From NCBI GenBank assembly GCA_021806645.1, contig JAJZQX010000009.1, forward strand, positions 1-64,000: a DNA stretch of 64,000 nucleotides. Reading direction: 5' to 3'. The notes under the pieces were generated by a model. It did not search any database. It had not been told where the DNA came from and worked only from the letters and a program-made list of their open reading frames with translations. Every line of letters begins with the position of its first letter. The stretch's first letter is position 1. A program made the translations under genes and the position numbers. The stretch comes from Myxococcales bacterium (lineage in GTDB: Bacteria; Myxococcota; Myxococcia; Myxococcales; Anaeromyxobacteraceae). Below are positions 5,622-49,218 of the stretch, in pieces.

Positions 5622-8021
5622 ATGCGCATCTCACTCCAGTGGCTGTCCGAGTACGTCGACCTCCCCGCGCCGGAAGAGCTGGCGCGGCGGCTCACCGCCG
5701 TGGGGCTCGAGGTCGAGGCCGTCGAGCGGACCGGCCAGGGGCTCGACGGCGTGGTGGCGGCCCGCATCCTCTCGTCGGTGAAGCACCCCGACGCCGAGAA
5801 GCTCTCCGTCACCTCCGTCGATCGCGGCGACGGCCGGCCGCTGCAGGTGGTCTGCGGCGCCAGGAACTACCAGGTCGGCGACCTCGTCCCGCTGGCCACC
5901 GTCGGGACCACGTTGCCGGGCGGCACCAGGATCTCGAAGGCGAAGCTGCGCGGCGTCGAGTCGTTCGGGATGCTCTGCTCGGCGCGCGAGCTGGGACTCT
6001 CCGAGGACGCCAGCGGCCTGCTCATCCTCCCCCCCGACGCCGTGCCCGGCACGCCCATCGCCACCGCGCTCAAGCTCGACGACGTGCTCTTCGAGGTCAA
6101 CGTCACCCCCAACCGCCCCGACGCCCTCTCGCACCTGGGGATCGCGCGCGAGGTGGCCGCCGCGACGGGCACGCCGCTCAAGCGCCCCGCGGCCGCGCCG
6201 CGCGAGGGCGGGCCGCCGGCCGCCGAAGCGGTCAAGGTCCGGATCGAGGCGCCCGAGAAGTGCGCCCGCTACGCGGCCCGCGTCGTCGAAGGCGTCACCA
6301 TCGGTCCCTCGCCGCTCTGGCTGCAGCGGCGGCTGGAGCGGTGCGGCATCCGCGCCATCTCCAACGTGGTCGACGTCACCAACCTGGTGTTGCTCGAGCT
6401 GGGCCACCCGCTCCACGCCTTCGACCTGGACAAGGTCGCGGGCGCCGAGATCGTGGTCCGCGCCGCCCGCCCCGGCGAGCGGATGACCACCCTCGACGGG
6501 AAGGAGCGGGTGCTCGATCCCGACGACCTGGTCATCGCCGATCGCGATCGCTCCAGCGCCCTGGCGGGCGTGATGGGCGGTGGCGACTCGGAGATCTCGG
6601 CCGGGACCAGGCGGGTGCTGGTCGAGTCGGCCTGGTTCCAGCCGGCCACCGTCCGGCGCACCGCCAAGCGCCACGGCCTCCACACCGAGGCGTCTCACCG
6701 CTTCGAGCGGGGCGCCGACCCCGGCATGGTCACGGCCGCCCTCGACCGCTGTGCCGCGCTGATCGCCGAGCTGGCCGGTGGCACGGTGCGGCCCGGAGTG
6801 GTGGACGCGCAGGCCCGGCCGGCCCCCCGGACCACGGTGCGGCTTCGCTGGAAGCGCCCGGGGCAGCTGCTCGGCCTCGAGGTGGCGGCCGGCGACATCC
6901 GGCGCATCCTGGGCGGGCTGGGCTTCACCGAGCGCGACTCGGACGGCGAGGGGGCCACCTGGGAGGTGCCCAGCTGGCGGGTGGACGTGACCATCGAGGA
7001 GGACCTGGTCGAGGAGCTGACCCGGACCCTCGGCTACCAGGTGATCCCGGAGACGCTGCCGCGGCTGGCGCTCGACACGCCGGCCATCGCGCCCCGCCTC
7101 GAGGCGCAGGCCCGCACCCGGGTGGCGTTGGAGGGGCATGGGTTCCGCGAGGTGGTGAGCTACGCCTTCGTGCCGCCGCAGGATCTCGAGGCCTTCGAGC
7201 CGGGCGTCAAGCCGGTGGCGCTCAAGAACCCCATCAGCGCCGAGCTGGCGGTGATGCGGACCAGCGTGGTGCCTTCCCTGCTGCGGACCGCCGCCTTCAA
7301 CAGGCGGCAGGGGCGCGACACCTCGCGGCTCTACGAGCTGGCCAGCGCCTTCTGGCCGCGCGCCGGTGCCGACCGCGACCCGCCCGCCGTCGAGCGGCCG
7401 GTGGTGGCCGCGGTGCTGACCGGCCGGCGCAGCCCGCTCTCCTGGGCCACCACCGGCGAGCCGTCCGACTTCCACGACCTGAAGGGCGCGGTCGAGAGCG
7501 TGCTGGCGGCGCTGGGCGTCGAGGCCGTCTTCGAGCAGGCGGGGCGGGCGGTGGCATGGCTCCACCCGCGCGCCGCCGCGCTGGTCCGGTCGAGCGACGG
7601 CGCCCGGCTCGGCGCGCTGGGCGAGATCCACCCGCGAGTGGCGCTGGCCTTCGACCTGCCGCGCGGCGTGCTGGCCTGCGAGCTCGACGCGGCCGCGCTG
7701 CTGGCGGCGTCGCGGCTGGTCCCGGGCTACCGGCCCATCCCGCGGCTGCCGGCGGTGCTGCGCGACCTCGCCGTGGTGGTGGACGAGCCGGTGGCCGCCG
7801 CCGCCGTCACCGCCCTGGTCCGCGAGGAGCCGCTGGTGGAGGAGGTCACGCTCTTCGACGTCTACCGCGGGGCGCCGCTGGCCGGCGGCCGCAAGAGCCT
7901 GGCGCTGGCGATCCGCTACCGGGCGTCCGATCGGACGCTCACCGACGCCGAGGCCGACGCCGCCCACGCGCGGATCGTCGAGCGGCTGACCCGCGCCGTC
8001 GGCGCCCAGCTCAGGGCCTGA
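5622..8021 (+). CDS. pheT: Phenylalanyl-tRNA synthetase beta subunit
   Basis: Beta chain of PheRS, carrying tRNA-binding, editing and anticodon-binding modules. It has 799 residues, the usual bacterial length. Order: N-terminal domain with MRISLQWLSEYVDLP, an EMAP/OB tRNA-binding domain at about 40-150 (HPDAEKLSVTSVD), B3/B4 editing and B5 domains in the middle, and a C-terminal ferredoxin-fold anticodon-binding domain (AVLRDLAVVVDE onward). I chose ATG 5622, with GGAGG at 5606-5610. The in-frame GTG at 5613 is only two bases from that site. A nine-C run precedes the ribosome-binding site. Confidence 0.96.
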   Translation: MRISLQWLSEYVDLPAPEELARRLTAVGLEVEAVERTGQGLDGVVAARILSSVKHPDAEKLSVTSVDRGDGRPLQVVCGARNYQVGDLVPLATVGTTLPGGTRISKAKLRGVESFGMLCSARELGLSEDASGLLILPPDAVPGTPIATALKLDDVLFEVNVTPNRPDALSHLGIAREVAAATGTPLKRPAAAPREGGPPAAEAVKVRIEAPEKCARYAARVVEGVTIGPSPLWLQRRLERCGIRAISNVVDVTNLVLLELGHPLHAFDLDKVAGAEIVVRAARPGERMTTLDGKERVLDPDDLVIADRDRSSALAGVMGGGDSEISAGTRRVLVESAWFQPATVRRTAKRHGLHTEASHRFERGADPGMVTAALDRCAALIAELAGGTVRPGVVDAQARPAPRTTVRLRWKRPGQLLGLEVAAGDIRRILGGLGFTERDSDGEGATWEVPSWRVDVTIEEDLVEELTRTLGYQVIPETLPRLALDTPAIAPRLEAQARTRVALEGHGFREVVSYAFVPPQDLEAFEPGVKPVALKNPISAELAVMRTSVVPSLLRTAAFNRRQGRDTSRLYELASAFWPRAGADRDPPAVERPVVAAVLTGRRSPLSWATTGEPSDFHDLKGAVESVLAALGVEAVFEQAGRAVAWLHPRAAALVRSSDGARLGALGEIHPRVALAFDLPRGVLACELDAAALLAASRLVPGYRPIPRLPAVLRDLAVVVDEPVAAAAVTALVREEPLVEEVTLFDVYRGAPLAGGRKSLALAIRYRASDRTLTDAEADAAHARIVERLTRAVGAQLRA

Positions 8022-8022
8022 G

Positions 8023-8406
8023 ATGCCTGGTCCGCTCCGACCCGCGCTGATGGCGCTGGCCTTCGCGCTGGCCGCGCTGGTGGCCAGCTGGAGTCCGCTG
8101 GCCGCGCCGTTCGGCCTGCTGACCGGCCTCGGCGCTCTCGCGCTGGCCGTCCGCGCCCGGCGCGAGGGCGGCCGCGTCGCGTGGGTCGCGCTCGCCCTGG
8201 CGCTGCTCGCGTCGGTGGCGTCGGCCTGGGTCCTGGCGCGGACCGCCGGCCTGGGGCGGACCCTGGACGACGCCCCGCTGGTCCCGGCGCACGGCGAGCG
8301 GGAGACCTCGAAGGAGCTCGACGCCGCCGCCGAGCGGAGCCGCGCCGCGCGCGAACGGGCCGAGCAGCAGGTGGATCCGGGGCCAGGCCCACGCACGCGC
8401 AATTGA
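8023..8406 (+). CDS. Small integral membrane protein, unknown function
   Basis: 127 residues, starting one base after the pheT stop, so translation is probably coupled. Three hydrophobic segments are visible at about residues 8-23, 26-43 and 54-72, with a basic patch RARREGGR between the second and third. A hydrophilic C-terminal tail of about 50 residues is rich in Glu and Arg (ETSKELDAAAERSRAARERAEQQ), probably helical and exposed. I recognise no family. The layout loosely resembles small DUF4190-like membrane proteins. The stop codon lies inside the predicted -35 element of the next gene. Confidence 0.7.
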   Translation: MPGPLRPALMALAFALAALVASWSPLAAPFGLLTGLGALALAVRARREGGRVAWVALALALLASVASAWVLARTAGLGRTLDDAPLVPAHGERETSKELDAAAERSRAARERAEQQVDPGPGPRTRN

Positions 8407-8431
8407 CAGGCCCCGGAAAATCGGCTACCGG
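8403..8431 (+). promoter_or_regulatory. Predicted promoter for ihfA
   Basis: A consensus TTGACA at 8403-8408 and TACCGG at 8426-8431 are separated by 17 bases, about 30 bases before the ihfA start. The -35 box overlaps the stop codon of the preceding membrane-protein gene, so ihfA may be expressed separately from pheST. Confidence 0.55.
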
Positions 8432-8461
8432 ATTCAGTAGTTAGCCCGACCTGACCGAGGG

Positions 8462-8803
8462 ATGACCGTGACCAAGGCCGACATCATCGAGAGCGTCTAC
8501 GAGAAGGTGGGCTTCTCCAAGAAGGAGGCCGCCGAGATCGTCGAGATGGTCTTCGACACCATCAAGGGGACGCTCGAGCACGGCGAGAAGATCAAGATCA
8601 GCGGCTTCGGGAACTTCATCGTCCGCGACAAGAAGTCCCGCGTCGGCCGCAATCCGCAGACCGGCGAGGAGATCGAGATCTCGGCCCGGCGCGTGCTGAC
8701 CTTCCGCCCGAGCCAGGTGCTCAAGAACGCGCTCAACGCCTCGGCCGAGGCCGCCGAGGAGGCCCGCCGCGTCGCCGGCGAATCCCCGTCGTCGGTGTCG
8801 TAG
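8462..8803 (+). CDS. ihfA: Integration host factor alpha subunit
   Basis: DNA-bending nucleoid protein of the HU/IHF family, 113 residues. It begins MTVTKADIIESVYEKVGFSK. The DNA-contacting beta arm includes GRNPQTGEEIEISARRV and the conserved Pro, and the C-terminal helix follows FRPSQVLKNAL. The ISARRVLTFRPSQ form and the position next to pheST point to IHF-alpha rather than HU. A Glu/Ala-rich tail of about 20 residues exceeds the enterobacterial length. IHF often assists sigma-54 promoters, and a sigma-54 activator is encoded elsewhere in this window. Confidence 0.92.
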   Translation: MTVTKADIIESVYEKVGFSKKEAAEIVEMVFDTIKGTLEHGEKIKISGFGNFIVRDKKSRVGRNPQTGEEIEISARRVLTFRPSQVLKNALNASAEAAEEARRVAGESPSSVS

Positions 8804-8851
8804 CGTCCGGTCCCGGGGTCTCGCGCCCGGGCGGACGGCGGCGCGCACGGC

Positions 8852-8857
8852 TATAAC
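8852..8857 (+). promoter_or_regulatory. -10-like hexamer just before queD
   Basis: TATAAC lies 6 bases before the ATG at 8864. No Shine-Dalgarno sequence and no good -35 box are seen. If used, it gives a leaderless or nearly leaderless mRNA. Confidence 0.4.
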
Positions 8858-8863
8858 CCACGC

Positions 8864-9256
8864 ATGGCGACCATCGACTACACCGACCGCCGGCGCATGC
8901 GCCTCGACGTGGAGTTCCACTTCGCCGCGGCGCATCGGCTCCCCCGGTACCAGGGGCCGTGCCTCCGCATGCACGGCCACAACTACAGGTTCTTCGTCGG
9001 CCTGGAGGGAGAGGTGGACCCGGCCACCGGCATGATCGCCGACTTCGGCGAGATCAAGCAGGTGGTCAACGAGAAGGTGCTGGCCCGCGCCGATCACCAG
9101 GCGCTCAACGACTTCCTGGAGAACCCGACCGCCGAGAACATCGCGCGGTGGCTCTGGGAGACGCTGGCGCCGCACCTGGCCGGCCTGGCCGAGGTTCGGC
9201 TCTTCGAGATCCCCGACTCCTGCGTCACCTACCGGGGGCCAGGTGCCGCCCCGTAG
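8864..9256 (+). CDS. queD: 6-carboxytetrahydropterin / 6-pyruvoyl-tetrahydropterin synthase family (QueD-like)
   Basis: Zinc enzyme of the T-fold family acting on dihydroneopterin triphosphate, as in the queuosine and pterin pathways. It has 130 residues. Zinc-ligand histidines appear in FAAAHRLP and in HGHNY. The Cys in GPCLRMHGH sits where the catalytic Cys is expected. The segment NPTAENIARWLWETL and the C-terminal EIPDSCVTY are typical. The next gene, GTP cyclohydrolase I, makes its likely substrate and overlaps it by 14 bases. Queuosine versus tetrahydropterin cannot be separated from sequence alone, since no queC, queE or queF lies nearby. Confidence 0.88.
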   Translation: MATIDYTDRRRMRLDVEFHFAAAHRLPRYQGPCLRMHGHNYRFFVGLEGEVDPATGMIADFGEIKQVVNEKVLARADHQALNDFLENPTAENIARWLWETLAPHLAGLAEVRLFEIPDSCVTYRGPGAAP

Positions 9257-9947
9257 GCGGAGGCCGCCGCGGCGGGAGCAGTCCGGCGCGCTGGCAGGGT
9301 CGGTCGGCAGGTTCCTCGACGCGCTCGGCCTGCCGCCCGAGGTCCGGCACGGCGACGATCTCGACAAGACGCCGGAGCGGGTCGCCGAGGCCTGGGCCAG
9401 CGACCTGCTCGACGGCTACCGGCACGATCCGGCCGAGATCCTCGGCGAGTCCATGCCCTCCACCGGGCGCGGGCTGGTGGCGGTCACCGGCATCGACTTC
9501 CACTCCGTCTGCCCACATCACCTGCTGCCGTCGCGCGGGCTGGCCCACGTGGCCTACGTGCCGGGCGGGCGGGTGGTCGGCTTCGGCCAGCTGGCCCGCC
9601 TGGTGGACGCGCTGGCCCACCGGCTGGTGCTGGAGGAGGACCTGGCGCGCCAGGTGGCCGAGGCGCTGATGGTCCACGCCGGGGCGCGCGGCGCCGCCTG
9701 CGTGCTGGAGGCGGAGCAGATGTGCCTGTCGGTTCGCGGCGAGCGGCGGCCCCGGGCCCGGGCCCACGCGCAGTTCTTCGCCGGCGTCATGGCCGAGGAC
9801 GGCGCGCTGGCGCGGCGCTTCCTGGCCGCGGTGGCGCGCGGCGTGCCGGCGGGGGCGCCGGCTCGGGCGCCGGCGAAGGCGCCGGCGAAGGCGCGGGCCA
9901 GCGGCGCGCGCCGCCGCGGTGCTCGCAGCCCGCGGGGAGCGCCGTGA
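9243..9947 (+). CDS. folE: GTP cyclohydrolase I
   Basis: Converts GTP to dihydroneopterin triphosphate, the entry to folate and pterin synthesis. It has 234 residues from GTG 9243, overlapping queD by 14 bases. Zinc ligands are seen as C90-P-H-H93 and C161 (QMCLSVRGERR); the T-fold core spans about residues 15-190. The C-terminal 40 or so residues are an unusual basic Ala-Pro-Lys/Arg tail encoded partly by 12-bp tandem repeats. The conserved MCMxMRGV motif is changed to MCLSVRGE, and the usual strong T-S-x-x-x-G-x-F ending is replaced by RAHAQFF. Activity is likely but the family end is divergent. Confidence 0.88.
   Translation: MPPRRRRPPRREQSGALAGSVGRFLDALGLPPEVRHGDDLDKTPERVAEAWASDLLDGYRHDPAEILGESMPSTGRGLVAVTGIDFHSVCPHHLLPSRGLAHVAYVPGGRVVGFGQLARLVDALAHRLVLEEDLARQVAEALMVHAGARGAACVLEAEQMCLSVRGERRPRARAHAQFFAGVMAEDGALARRFLAAVARGVPAGAPARAPAKAPAKARASGARRRGARSPRGAP
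9843..9890 (+). repeat. 12-bp tandem repeat in the folE tail
   Basis: Four consecutive 12-base units built on GCGCCGGC plus a variable four bases (GGGG, TCGG, GAAG, GAAG) encode the APA-R/K tail of FolE. The last two units are identical. Copy number could vary without breaking the frame. Confidence 0.7.
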
Positions 9948-10618
9948 AGCCTTCCACCGCCATCGTCACCGGCGGCGGCCGCGGCATCGGAGAGGCGGTG
10001 GCGCGCGCCCTGACCGCGCGCGGCCTGGCCGTGACCGTCTTCGCCCGCACCTCGGCCGAGCTGGAGCGGGTGGTGAAGGAGGGCGGGGCGGCGCTGGCCG
10101 TGACCGGGGACGTCTCCAGCGAGGCCGACGTGGCGCGGCTGCTGGCCGAGCACGAGCGGAAGCTCGGCCCCTGCGACCTCCTCGTCAACAACGCCGGCGT
10201 GCTGGTCCGGGGCGCGGTGGACGAGCTCCAGCCCGAGCAGTGGCGCCACTCGATCGAGATCAACCTGACCGGGCCGTTTCTCTGCGCCCGGGCGGTGGTG
10301 CCGGGCATGAAGGCGCGGCGCCACGGCCGGGTCGTCAACGTGGCCTCCATCTCCGGCACGGTCGGAACCCCGGAGGCGAGCGCCTACAACGCGTCGAAGT
10401 GGGGGTTGCTCGGCTTCACGCGGTGCCTCGCCGAGGAGCTGCGCCGGTACGGCGTCCAGGCCATGGCCGTCTCGCCCGGCAGCGTCGACACCGCCATGCT
10501 CCGCCAGACCCCGTTCCCGCCCGACATGACCCCGGACGACGTCGCCAAGGTGGTGGTCTTCGCCGGTCTCGACGCCCCCGACGCCTCCACCGGCGCCAAC
10601 CTCGAGGTGTACGGATGA
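9944..10618 (+). CDS. Short-chain dehydrogenase/reductase
   Basis: NAD(P)H-dependent classical SDR, 224 residues, starting at GTG 9944 that overlaps the folE stop (GTGA). Visible are the cofactor motif TGGGRGIG at about residues 9-16, NNAG near 79-82, the catalytic Ser in VASISG and the YNASK dyad, then the PG segment (SPGSVDTAM). It lies between folE and an FAD oxidase in one overlapping operon. A pteridine-reductase-like job is possible from context, but the core also looks like 3-oxoacyl-ACP reductases. Substrate not assigned. Confidence 0.85.
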   Translation: MKPSTAIVTGGGRGIGEAVARALTARGLAVTVFARTSAELERVVKEGGAALAVTGDVSSEADVARLLAEHERKLGPCDLLVNNAGVLVRGAVDELQPEQWRHSIEINLTGPFLCARAVVPGMKARRHGRVVNVASISGTVGTPEASAYNASKWGLLGFTRCLAEELRRYGVQAMAVSPGSVDTAMLRQTPFPPDMTPDDVAKVVVFAGLDAPDASTGANLEVYG

Positions 10619-46511: not shown

Positions 46512-46540
46512 AAGAGCGGTTCCAAGGAGAAGGACAGGCC

Positions 46541-46924
46541 ATGCTGCGTGACGCGATTGCCCACATCGAGGCGAAGTACACGAAGTCCAACGTCCCCGCG
46601 CTCCGCGCCGGCGACCAGGTGAAGGTCCACACCAAGATCAAGGAAGGCGACAAGGAGCGCATCCAGGTCTTCGAGGGTGTGATCATCGCCAAGCGCGAAG
46701 GGGGCCCGCGGGGCAATTTCACCGTCCGCAAGGTGAGCTACGGCGTCGGGGTGGAGCGCATCTTCCCGACCCACAGCCCGCGCATCGACAAGATCGAGGT
46801 GGTGAACCATGGCGACGTCCGCCGTTCCCGCCTCTTCTACCTGCGCGACCTGAAGGGCAAGGCCGCGCGCCTGACCCACGACGAGGGCGCCGGCGTCGTC
46901 GCCGTCACCCCAGGGCCGGCGTAG
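46541..46924 (+). CDS. rplS: 50S ribosomal protein L19
   Basis: Subunit-interface protein, 127 residues. [32 protein letters not shown] and [19 protein letters not shown] are diagnostic. AAGGAGAAGG precedes the ATG. Last gene of the ribosomal supercluster. Confidence 0.97.
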
Positions 46925-46969: not shown

Positions 46970-48829
46970 GTGCTACTCCTCGAGTTCGCAGCCCAGGGTA
47001 TCCGTGGCGTGGCGCCGAGCGGCGGCCGCGCCACGCTCCGCACCGGTTACAACGTGGTGGCGGCCGATGGGGCCGCCCTGCGCCGGCTGCTCGAGGCGCT
47101 CCTCTACCCCGATCCTCGCGACGTGGACGCCCTGGCGCGTGCCCAGGGCGCGCCCGGCGTCGGGCCGGCGCGAGCCGGCTTGACCCTGGTCGGCGACGAC
47201 CGAGTCACCTACCGGCTGGTGCGCGACTTCAACGCCGGCTGCCAGCTTCACCGCTTCGATCCCGAGAAGCGCGCCTTCGCGCCCGTGTCGCAGGACCTCG
47301 CCGAGATCGCCGGGCTGTTGCGCGGCCCCATCGGCGTCCCCTCGGCGCAGCGGCTGGCGGCGCTGCTCTCGCTCGCCACCTCGGAGCTGCCCTCCAAGGC
47401 CAGCGGTGGCCTCGGGACCAGCCCGGCCATTCCGGCGGCGGTGCGCCCCGTGCTCAGCGGCGAGCAGGCCCGCAAGCGGCTCGAGGAGCTGCGCGTGGAG
47501 CTGGCGCGGGCCAAGGTCGCCGGGAAGCTGCAGGAGCGGCTCGACGCACTCCAGCAGCGCCTCTTCAAGCTCGAGGAGGCGCTGAAGAGCGGCCAGCGGG
47601 TCCAGGACGCGCTGGCCGCCGCGGGCGCCGAGCGCGCGGCGCTGGAGCCGGTGGCGGCGGCGGCGACCTCGCTGGGCGACCCGCAGGCGCGGTTCGGGGC
47701 GTACGAGAAGTCGGCCGCCAGGCGGGCCGAGGCCGATGCCCGGATCGCCGCCGAACGGGAGGCGATCGTCGAGGCGCGGGCCCTGGGAGCGCCGCAACCG
47801 ATCTGGGCGTCGCCGCCGTTCCTGGCGGGCGTGGTGGGCGGGCTGGCGCTCCTGGTGGCTGGGCTCGCGGCCGGTGACTCCGACCTGCGCTACCTGTCCC
47901 TGCTCGACATCCCGGCCTTCGGCTGGTCGGCCTGGCTGGCGCTCCACTGGATCGACGCGCAGGAGGCGTGGGGGCGGATCGGGCGGCGCGGCCAGGTGGT
48001 CGATGCCTGGGAGGCCAAGGTGCAGGCGCAGTTCGCTCGCGACGGCGGGGCGGTCAACGCGGCTCTCCAGGCCCTGGGCTTCACCAAGCCGTCCGAGCTC
48101 AAGGACGCGCTCGAACGGCTGGCGGCGGCCGAGCAAGGGGTGGTCGAGGCCAGGCAGCGGCTGACGGAGTGGGAAGCCGACGCGCAGACCACCGACGCGC
48201 TGGCCGAGCACCGGAAGGTCGAGGAGGAGATGCGCGAGGTGGAGACCAGGCTTTCCGAGCAGGCCGGCGGCTTCGTGCGCGACGTGCAGGCGGTGGAGGC
48301 CGAGCTGGCGAGGGTGGAGGCCGAGGCGGCGGCGCCGCCCCGGGTCCCGGCACCGGGGATGGACCCGCCACCCACGCGCCCGGCCGCCGCCGGCCCGGCC
48401 GGCGAGCCGCTGCGCGGCCTGCTGGAGCGCGCGGCGGTGGAGCTGGGCGGGAGCCCGGCCTCGGTGGCGCGCGCGGTGGCGGCCAAGGCCTCCCAGGCGG
48501 TGGCCGCCTTCACGCTCAACCGGTTCACCGTAGTGAGCTCCGACGATCGCGGGAACGTGCAGGTGGTGAGCGGGGGACGGCCGGTGCCGGCCATGACCTT
48601 GCCGCCGGCCGAGCGTGATCTCGTCTTCCTGGCGCTGCGGCTGGCGCTCCTGGAACAGGCGCTGGCCTCCGACAGGTCGGTGGCCATCCTCGAGGACGTC
48701 TTCGCCGGGCTCTCCGACACCGTGCGGCGCACCGCGGGCCGGATGCTCAAGGCGATGGCCAAGCAGGGCCAGGTGATCCACGCCTCGGCGGACCCGGCCT
48801 TCCGCGAGGCGGCGGACCACCAGTCGTGA
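46970..48829 (+). CDS. Membrane-anchored SMC/RecF-like protein lacking Walker A
   Basis: 619 residues, no assigned function. The first 50 residues look like the N-lobe of an SMC/RecF/YhaN ATPase, but where the P-loop should be there is TGYNVVAADGAALRRLL, without GxxxxGK[S/T]. A helical coiled-coil arm spans about 160-270, two hydrophobic segments lie at about 275-300 and 305-328, and a second coiled-coil arm at about 375-460. The C-terminal part keeps an ABC-like signature region (PPAERDLVFLALRLALLEQAL) and a Walker B-like AILEDVF (E575-D576). It starts 45 bases after rplS and overlaps yraN (GTGA). ATP binding is doubtful; a structural or scaffolding role is possible. Confidence 0.7.
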   Translation: MLLLEFAAQGIRGVAPSGGRATLRTGYNVVAADGAALRRLLEALLYPDPRDVDALARAQGAPGVGPARAGLTLVGDDRVTYRLVRDFNAGCQLHRFDPEKRAFAPVSQDLAEIAGLLRGPIGVPSAQRLAALLSLATSELPSKASGGLGTSPAIPAAVRPVLSGEQARKRLEELRVELARAKVAGKLQERLDALQQRLFKLEEALKSGQRVQDALAAAGAERAALEPVAAAATSLGDPQARFGAYEKSAARRAEADARIAAEREAIVEARALGAPQPIWASPPFLAGVVGGLALLVAGLAAGDSDLRYLSLLDIPAFGWSAWLALHWIDAQEAWGRIGRRGQVVDAWEAKVQAQFARDGGAVNAALQALGFTKPSELKDALERLAAAEQGVVEARQRLTEWEADAQTTDALAEHRKVEEEMREVETRLSEQAGGFVRDVQAVEAELARVEAEAAAPPRVPAPGMDPPPTRPAAAGPAGEPLRGLLERAAVELGGSPASVARAVAAKASQAVAAFTLNRFTVVSSDDRGNVQVVSGGRPVPAMTLPPAERDLVFLALRLALLEQALASDRSVAILEDVFAGLSDTVRRTAGRMLKAMAKQGQVIHASADPAFREAADHQS

Positions 48830-49218
48830 GCTCTCCAGAGGGCATGAAGCGACGGGACCGGGGGCGGGAGGCCGAGGCGCTGGCCGAGCGCTACCTGGCC
48901 GGGCTCGGCTACCGGACGCTGGCGCGCAACCACGCCACGCGGCTGGGCGAGGTGGACCTGGTCTGCCGCGACGGTGACGTCATCTGCTTCGTGGAGGTTC
49001 GCAGCCGCACCAGCGCCGCGCAGGGCTCGCCGCTGGAGACGGTGGGGACCACCAAGGCGCGCCGGGTGGTGGCGGCCGCCACCGACTGGGCCACGCGGAA
49101 CGGCGCGCTCGAGCAGCCGCTCCGCTTCGACGTGGTGGCCGTGCTCCTGGACGGCCGGGAGCCCCGGTTCGAGCTGGTCCGTGGCGCCTTCGACGCGTCG
49201 GGGCGGGCCTGCCCGTGA
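48826..49218 (+). CDS. yraN: YraN/UPF0102 family putative nuclease
   Basis: 130 residues of the Holliday-junction-resolvase-like fold. RDRGREAEALAERYLAGLGY, LGEVDLVCRDGDVICFVEVRSR gives the E-x(n)-D-x(n)-E-V-R/K active-site pattern. The family's true substrate is not settled. GTG 48826 overlaps the SMC-like gene stop and its own stop overlaps rsmI. The usual neighbour rnhB is absent here. Confidence 0.9.
   Translation: MSSPEGMKRRDRGREAEALAERYLAGLGYRTLARNHATRLGEVDLVCRDGDVICFVEVRSRTSAAQGSPLETVGTTKARRVVAAATDWATRNGALEQPLRFDVVAVLLDGREPRFELVRGAFDASGRACP

Follow-up and report, generated by a model that had tools for sequence, protein, structure and literature searches.

On the forward strand of the window (the whole stretch of DNA analysed, 64,000 nucleotides), the genes run in the order rpoA-rplQ-rpsP-KH-rimM-trmD-rplS-X-yraN-rsmI, where X denotes the gene under study. 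Below, labels beginning with f stand for taxonomic groups (f4 a family, f11 a class), those with L for loci and those with G for genomes. The features of the locus are as follows.

46540..46924, + strand: rplS, conserved upstream neighbour of X (start approximate)
46970..48829, + strand: whole gene X, a Rad50/YhaN-like, membrane-anchored putative pseudo-ATPase of 619 aa, with a GTG start kept in relatives
46970..47398, + strand: N-lobe, residues 1-143, with the conserved YRLVRD strand (residues 81-86); residues 6-133 align to Rad50 3qf7 through the family profile, and the model has strands at 68-107
47045..47110, + strand: position of the lost Walker A motif, residues 26-47, from alignments
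47459..47794, + strand: coiled-coil arm 1, residues 164-275 (164-271 in the model), with a conserved LQ..LD.LQ close to its base
47807..47959, + strand: predicted membrane hairpin of two helices, residues 280-330, with the motif RYxxLLDIPAFG, from hydropathy and consensus
47960..48334, + strand: coiled-coil arm 2, residues 331-455 (315-454 in the structure model)
48404..48826, + strand: C-lobe, residues 479-619, from a Rad50 C-lobe fold match and YhaN profile matches
48599..48622, + strand: degenerate signature motif LPPAERDL, residues 544-551 (YhaN counterpart LSRGTREQ)
48680..48703, + strand: degenerate Walker B motif VAILEDVF, residues 571-578 (YhaN counterpart LIVDDVLV)
48826..49218, + strand: yraN (UPF0102, PD-(D/E)XK family; PF02021, E=2.2e-23), downstream of X, with a start at GTG 48826 or ATG 48844

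Single-protein searches found homologs of X in 163 of the 195 genomes of its phylum and in 55 of 60 near relatives, the named relatives being Anaeromyxobacter sp., and full-length homologs share 27-75% identity with the window protein. Distribution was counted within the phylum; beyond it, plasmids and one narrow genome scan were covered. A dN/dS of 0.29 against the nearest relative, a GC3 of 0.94 and the spread of homologs across the phylum rule out a chance open reading frame, and by these measures the gene is intact and under purifying selection. X is not an isolated case: its family spans the phylum and retains Walker A in one class, and the presence of X in 131 of the 149 good-quality genomes argues that it is functional without an ATP motif. 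As a single sequence, the window protein stays below the cut-off of every curated Pfam and NCBIfam family (SMC_N, E=0.03), and our literature search found no paper tying this gene, or any YhaN lacking Walker A, to a function. A promoter and terminator scan from rplS to rsmI, uninformative at this G+C, returned no site. In three family f4 genomes of 2.1-2.7 Mb (G153, G152 and G042; loci L135, L136 and L137), X was undetected and trmD had no recognisable rplS behind it.

Profiles and structure models identify X as a Rad50/SMC-superfamily protein, laid out as an N-lobe, a coiled-coil arm, two mid-arm membrane helices, a second arm and a C-lobe. An SMC-type plan of this kind had been proposed in an earlier sequence-only reading of the window, and it was confirmed by hydropathy (the membrane hairpin is seen in 25 of 26 sampled members), by profiles and by the model, with YhaN as the nearest counterpart. 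Queried alone with phmmer, the window protein reached Rad50 C-lobes at 6e-4, and a 36-member family profile matched Thermotoga Rad50 (3qf7) at E=3.6e-12 with both lobes aligned, the SMC matches of the same profile being weaker (best 4e-5 to 2e-4 in the PDB search). A profile from the 27 members without Walker A alone still matched Rad50 C-lobes at 1.5e-8. Modelled with AlphaFold2 (pLDDT 69 and 68, from three-sequence alignments each), the window protein and the ortholog at L032 both consist of arms plus a Rad50-like C-lobe, with low confidence for residues 1-34, where the Walker A region begins. The best PDB matches in Foldseek were Mre11-Rad50, SMC heads and JetABC. A fold unrelated to ABC/SMC proteins, named in the sequence-only reading as the outcome that would overturn it, was not what emerged, as VIA-align superposed the window model on the Rad50 C-lobe with Z 12.8 (2.9 A over 123 residues) and the L032 model with Z 14.7 (2.1 A over 121 residues); both lobes of the latter also align to whole heads.

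Within the superfamily, the C-lobe profile of the loop-less members matched nine YhaN proteins from myxobacteria at E 1e-14 to 9e-11 (45-57 bits), compared with a non-significant 3 bits for SbcC and at most 18 bits for RecF-like proteins (the SMC fragments in this comparison were without C-lobes). With YhaN as the query, in turn, the X of G068 was found at 1.2e-5. By profile similarity, YhaN (SbcE) is the nearest known relative of X. It is a separate, longer gene found mainly in family f4, where it coexists with X. The AAA_27 family (PF13514, cut-off 22) does not match the window protein and gives 17 and 15 bits for two f11 members.

Among the loop-less members, the best conserved N-lobe positions are D77, R82, R85 and L93, together with P141-S142, followed through the rest of the protein by the LQ..LD of the arm base, G291 and LLDIPAFG of the hairpin and, in the C-lobe, an R-S-Q-Y/F-ALT stretch, a DL..LALRLAL.E helix and an invariant Q601. 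Judged from this pattern, selection maintains the head core and the hairpin but not the nucleotide site. The second membrane helix (47884-47926 in the window) carries the conserved (R)Y-x-x-LLDIPAFG, which places an acidic residue in or beside the membrane; this motif did not occur in the YhaN hairpins examined.

The absence of a P-loop, noted at first from the window protein by itself, holds in alignment: no GxxxxGK[ST] is present, the Walker A position reads GYNVVAADGAALRRLLEALLYP, and the stretch of the family profile opposite the Rad50 P-loop is 'pGynvlvapsaekatlvrlllalL'. The loop is absent from all 56 homologs sampled outside f11, and among the 65 aligned members GxGK[ST] at these columns is confined to the nine of f11. 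A sequencing error or a wrong start hiding a P-loop, raised in the sequence-only reading as a possible refutation, was excluded, since both the start and the missing motif are common to all sampled relatives outside f11. The degeneration extends to the other motifs. The signature reads mostly LPPxxxDL across the family. A glutamate and an aspartate had been described as remaining in the C-lobe, and both are indeed present, as E575-D576 (ILEDVF); however, they do not form the canonical D-E pair (D-D in YhaN), and the signature has degenerated as well. The first Walker B aspartate is kept in 9/9 f11 proteins versus 26/56 elsewhere (glutamate in 25, the window protein included), which suggests that Walker B was relaxed along with the loss of Walker A. 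As aligned, all the nucleotide motifs of X are degenerate, beyond Walker A alone, so ATP binding and hydrolysis have most likely been lost. Nucleotide binding without canonical motifs does occur in some pseudo-enzymes.

ABC proteins with asymmetric heads, in which one site is degenerate, exist elsewhere, and the partly retained Walker B-like acids would fit an X that acts as a partner-dependent ATPase, lending its degenerate head to a composite site with an intact Rad50/YhaN-type protein. However, with Walker A, signature and Walker B all degraded there is little left for X to contribute, and the window's genome has no YhaN and nothing above the AAA_27 cut-off to serve as partner, which makes such an arrangement very unlikely.

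The nine genomes of f11, a separate class of the phylum, carry their genes downstream of rpsP-KH-rimM-trmD-rplS, and these genes are considered orthologs of X because of this same rplS-adjacent position. All nine are Walker A-positive, with variants including GGPGSGKTS, GGPGTGKST and GPSGAGKSS (alanine replaces the first glycine in two), and three pass the AAA_23 cut-off. Their signature is altered too, without the canonical Ser/Gly, so that their own ATPase activity is doubtful. Retention of the Walker A core at the same locus argues that the X family had an ATP-binding, YhaN-like ancestor and subsequently lost the loop. In a tree built with the Walker A columns masked and rooted with a YhaN/SbcC outgroup, each taxonomic family with at least two rows forms a single clade, and the sister of f11 is the loop-less group f10, with SH-aLRT 97 unrooted and 88 rooted. 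This topology suggests two or more losses of Walker A, with a weak root support of 73 that is also compatible with a single loss. From the aligned motifs, it looks as if the signature decayed first and Walker A next, with Walker B drifting.

Several neighbouring observations belong here. Taxonomy places group f10 (L088 and L089) in the same class as the window, but the X of f10 has that of f11 as its sister, which may reflect transfer or a taxonomy problem; at L088, rnhB lies behind X. The f11 genome G061 encodes, at L120:3421-5883, an 821-aa YhaN-type protein with GPNESGKTT that matches the C-lobe profile of X (3.8e-9) and may be a further intermediate between YhaN and X. At the f11 locus L057, a 787-aa open reading frame without a Pfam match (7610-9970) is situated between rnhB and an APH-family gene.

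The sequence-only reading had X in the usual place of rnhB, which is right in outcome: genomes without X show either rplS-rnhB-yraN (L138, L139 and L143) or rplS-yraN-rsmI (L141, L142 and L144), X is followed by rnhB in members of f10, f11, f13, f14, f24 and f25, and the rnhB of the window's genome is on another contig. The simplest account would be that X inserted at the rplS-rnhB junction and that rnhB departed later in the window's lineage. In class f11 (L056, L057, L066, L067 and L083-L087), rnhB comes directly after X, and in several of these loci yraN is on the opposite strand. The translational coupling to yraN proposed at the outset stands only in part. The two genes overlap by 4 nt if yraN starts at GTG 48826, but the overlap disappears with ATG 48844, a start behind AGAGGG and 14 nt after the X stop that is, from its sequence context, at least as likely. 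Coupling as evidence of function is weakened by this alternative start and by the rplS-yraN order of genomes without X.

These arrangements bear on whether X is a membrane-anchored regulatory or scaffold subunit of a YraN nuclease, forming a pair comparable to YhaN-YhaO or SbcCD. Rad50-type proteins are usually paired with a nuclease, and at most loci of f1-f9, f15, f28 and f31 X and yraN are direct neighbours on one strand. YraN is moreover a predicted PD-(D/E)XK nuclease (PMC1189080). However, yraN follows rplS or rnhB in genomes that have no X, rnhB follows X in members of the six groups listed above, yraN is inverted in several f11 loci, and the GExD...EVR motif of YraN is unchanged with or without X. 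The adjacency of X and yraN is largely inherited gene order, which as such is no argument for joint function and lends weak support to a nuclease partnership; we consider the pairing unlikely. In the yraN genes of 68 loci (48826-49218 in the window), nearly all read EVR where the predicted catalytic motif has been described as EVK.

The reading we favour, with a probability of roughly 0.6, is that X is a shortened YhaN-type pseudo-ATPase, taking together its fold, its origin, the loss of the ATP cycle and a structural or tethering role. From an ancestral head with Walker A, as retained by class f11, the protein would have kept antiparallel arms that bring the two lobes together into a Rad50-like head, probably cytoplasmic, whilst the arm tip, going by sequence and model, would sit in the inner membrane as a hairpin of two helices, like that of YhaN, at the place taken by the zinc hook in Rad50 and by the hinge in SMC. 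Without an ATP cycle, the contacts of the head would be constitutive or set by a partner, and X may act as a fixed membrane-anchored rod that keeps a cargo at the membrane, be it DNA, a nuclease or some other protein. A role with DNA, taken alone, is a tentative proposal, and the specific version in which X works without ATP to anchor DNA at the inner membrane or to organise it there, while a sister class still uses ATP, is rather doubtful. It is also possible, if somewhat unlikely, that X is purely an envelope or cytoskeletal protein in which the Rad50 head now serves for protein-protein contacts and has nothing to do with DNA. The hairpin is among its better conserved parts, the ATP cycle is lost and the locus consists of translation rather than repair genes; however, no positive evidence points to an envelope partner, and conservation of the head core and of the YRLVRD strand indicates a continuing role for the head surface.

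Engagement of the heads, driven by ATP, is seen as central to SMC/Rad50-type machines, and over most of a phylum X is maintained with no ATP loop. With loop-less proteins and Walker A-bearing orthologs at one locus, the roles of arms, head and anchor alone become testable, and the series allows one to ask which motif decayed first. The analysis also suggests what function to seek for a gene that is conserved across the myxobacterial phylum and whose product in the window passes no curated Pfam or NCBIfam cut-off. A survey of an archaeal SMC-related family dropped candidates without Walker A, or without Walker B and signature (PMC9389158), and a family like X could escape surveys of that type.

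Among known systems, X has a weak resemblance to the defence ATPases of Lamassu (LmuB) and MADS (mad3), and might be a domesticated SMC-type anti-phage or anti-plasmid protein of this kind. PADLOC gave weak matches for the window protein (mad3 at 7.7e-9, LmuB at 7e-5), but these are limited to the arm and C-lobe and are expected from common membership of the superfamily. In contrast to these systems, X is vertically inherited across the phylum, each family forming one clade, and has a membrane hairpin and no Walker A; its ribosomal and tRNA-modification locus is fixed, no partner effector gene accompanies it, and a plasmid search with an f11 query, bearing on a mobile origin, returned no match. 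Membership of a defence system was rejected, and a defence origin is highly improbable. SMC and MukB share the superfamily plan with X, but their profile matches are weaker, X gives no Pfam hinge match, and its short arms, membrane hairpin and missing Walker A set it apart. By profile and by fold, Rad50/SbcC and X both have an ABC head whose two lobes are separated by a coiled coil. However, X has a single cysteine (residue 91) and no CxxC zinc hook, its arm tip being a hydrophobic hairpin, the Walker A, signature and Walker B motifs for ATP hydrolysis are not matched in the window protein, and where Rad50/SbcC has the Mre11/SbcD nuclease gene alongside, the conserved neighbours of X are rplS, rnhB, yraN and rsmI.

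The closest comparison is with YhaN, also known as SbcE, whose partner nuclease is YhaO/SbcF. The SbcEF pair has been implicated in double-strand-break repair and is poorly characterised (PMC6452273). YhaN and X are alike in C-lobe sequence, in the order of their parts and in the two membrane helices at the arm tip, and a YhaN-like Walker B of the D-D type is found in the f11 orthologs of X. The two differ in size (X mostly 580-710 aa, YhaN about 1000-1230), in the Walker A GPNEAGKS/T of YhaN, which is missing from the window protein and from sampled X outside f11 and takes the form GxGK[ST] in f11, in the signature LSxGTxxQ (LSRGT), which X replaces with LPPxD/E (LPPAERDL in the window), and in locus, X lying beside rplS as a gene independent of YhaN.
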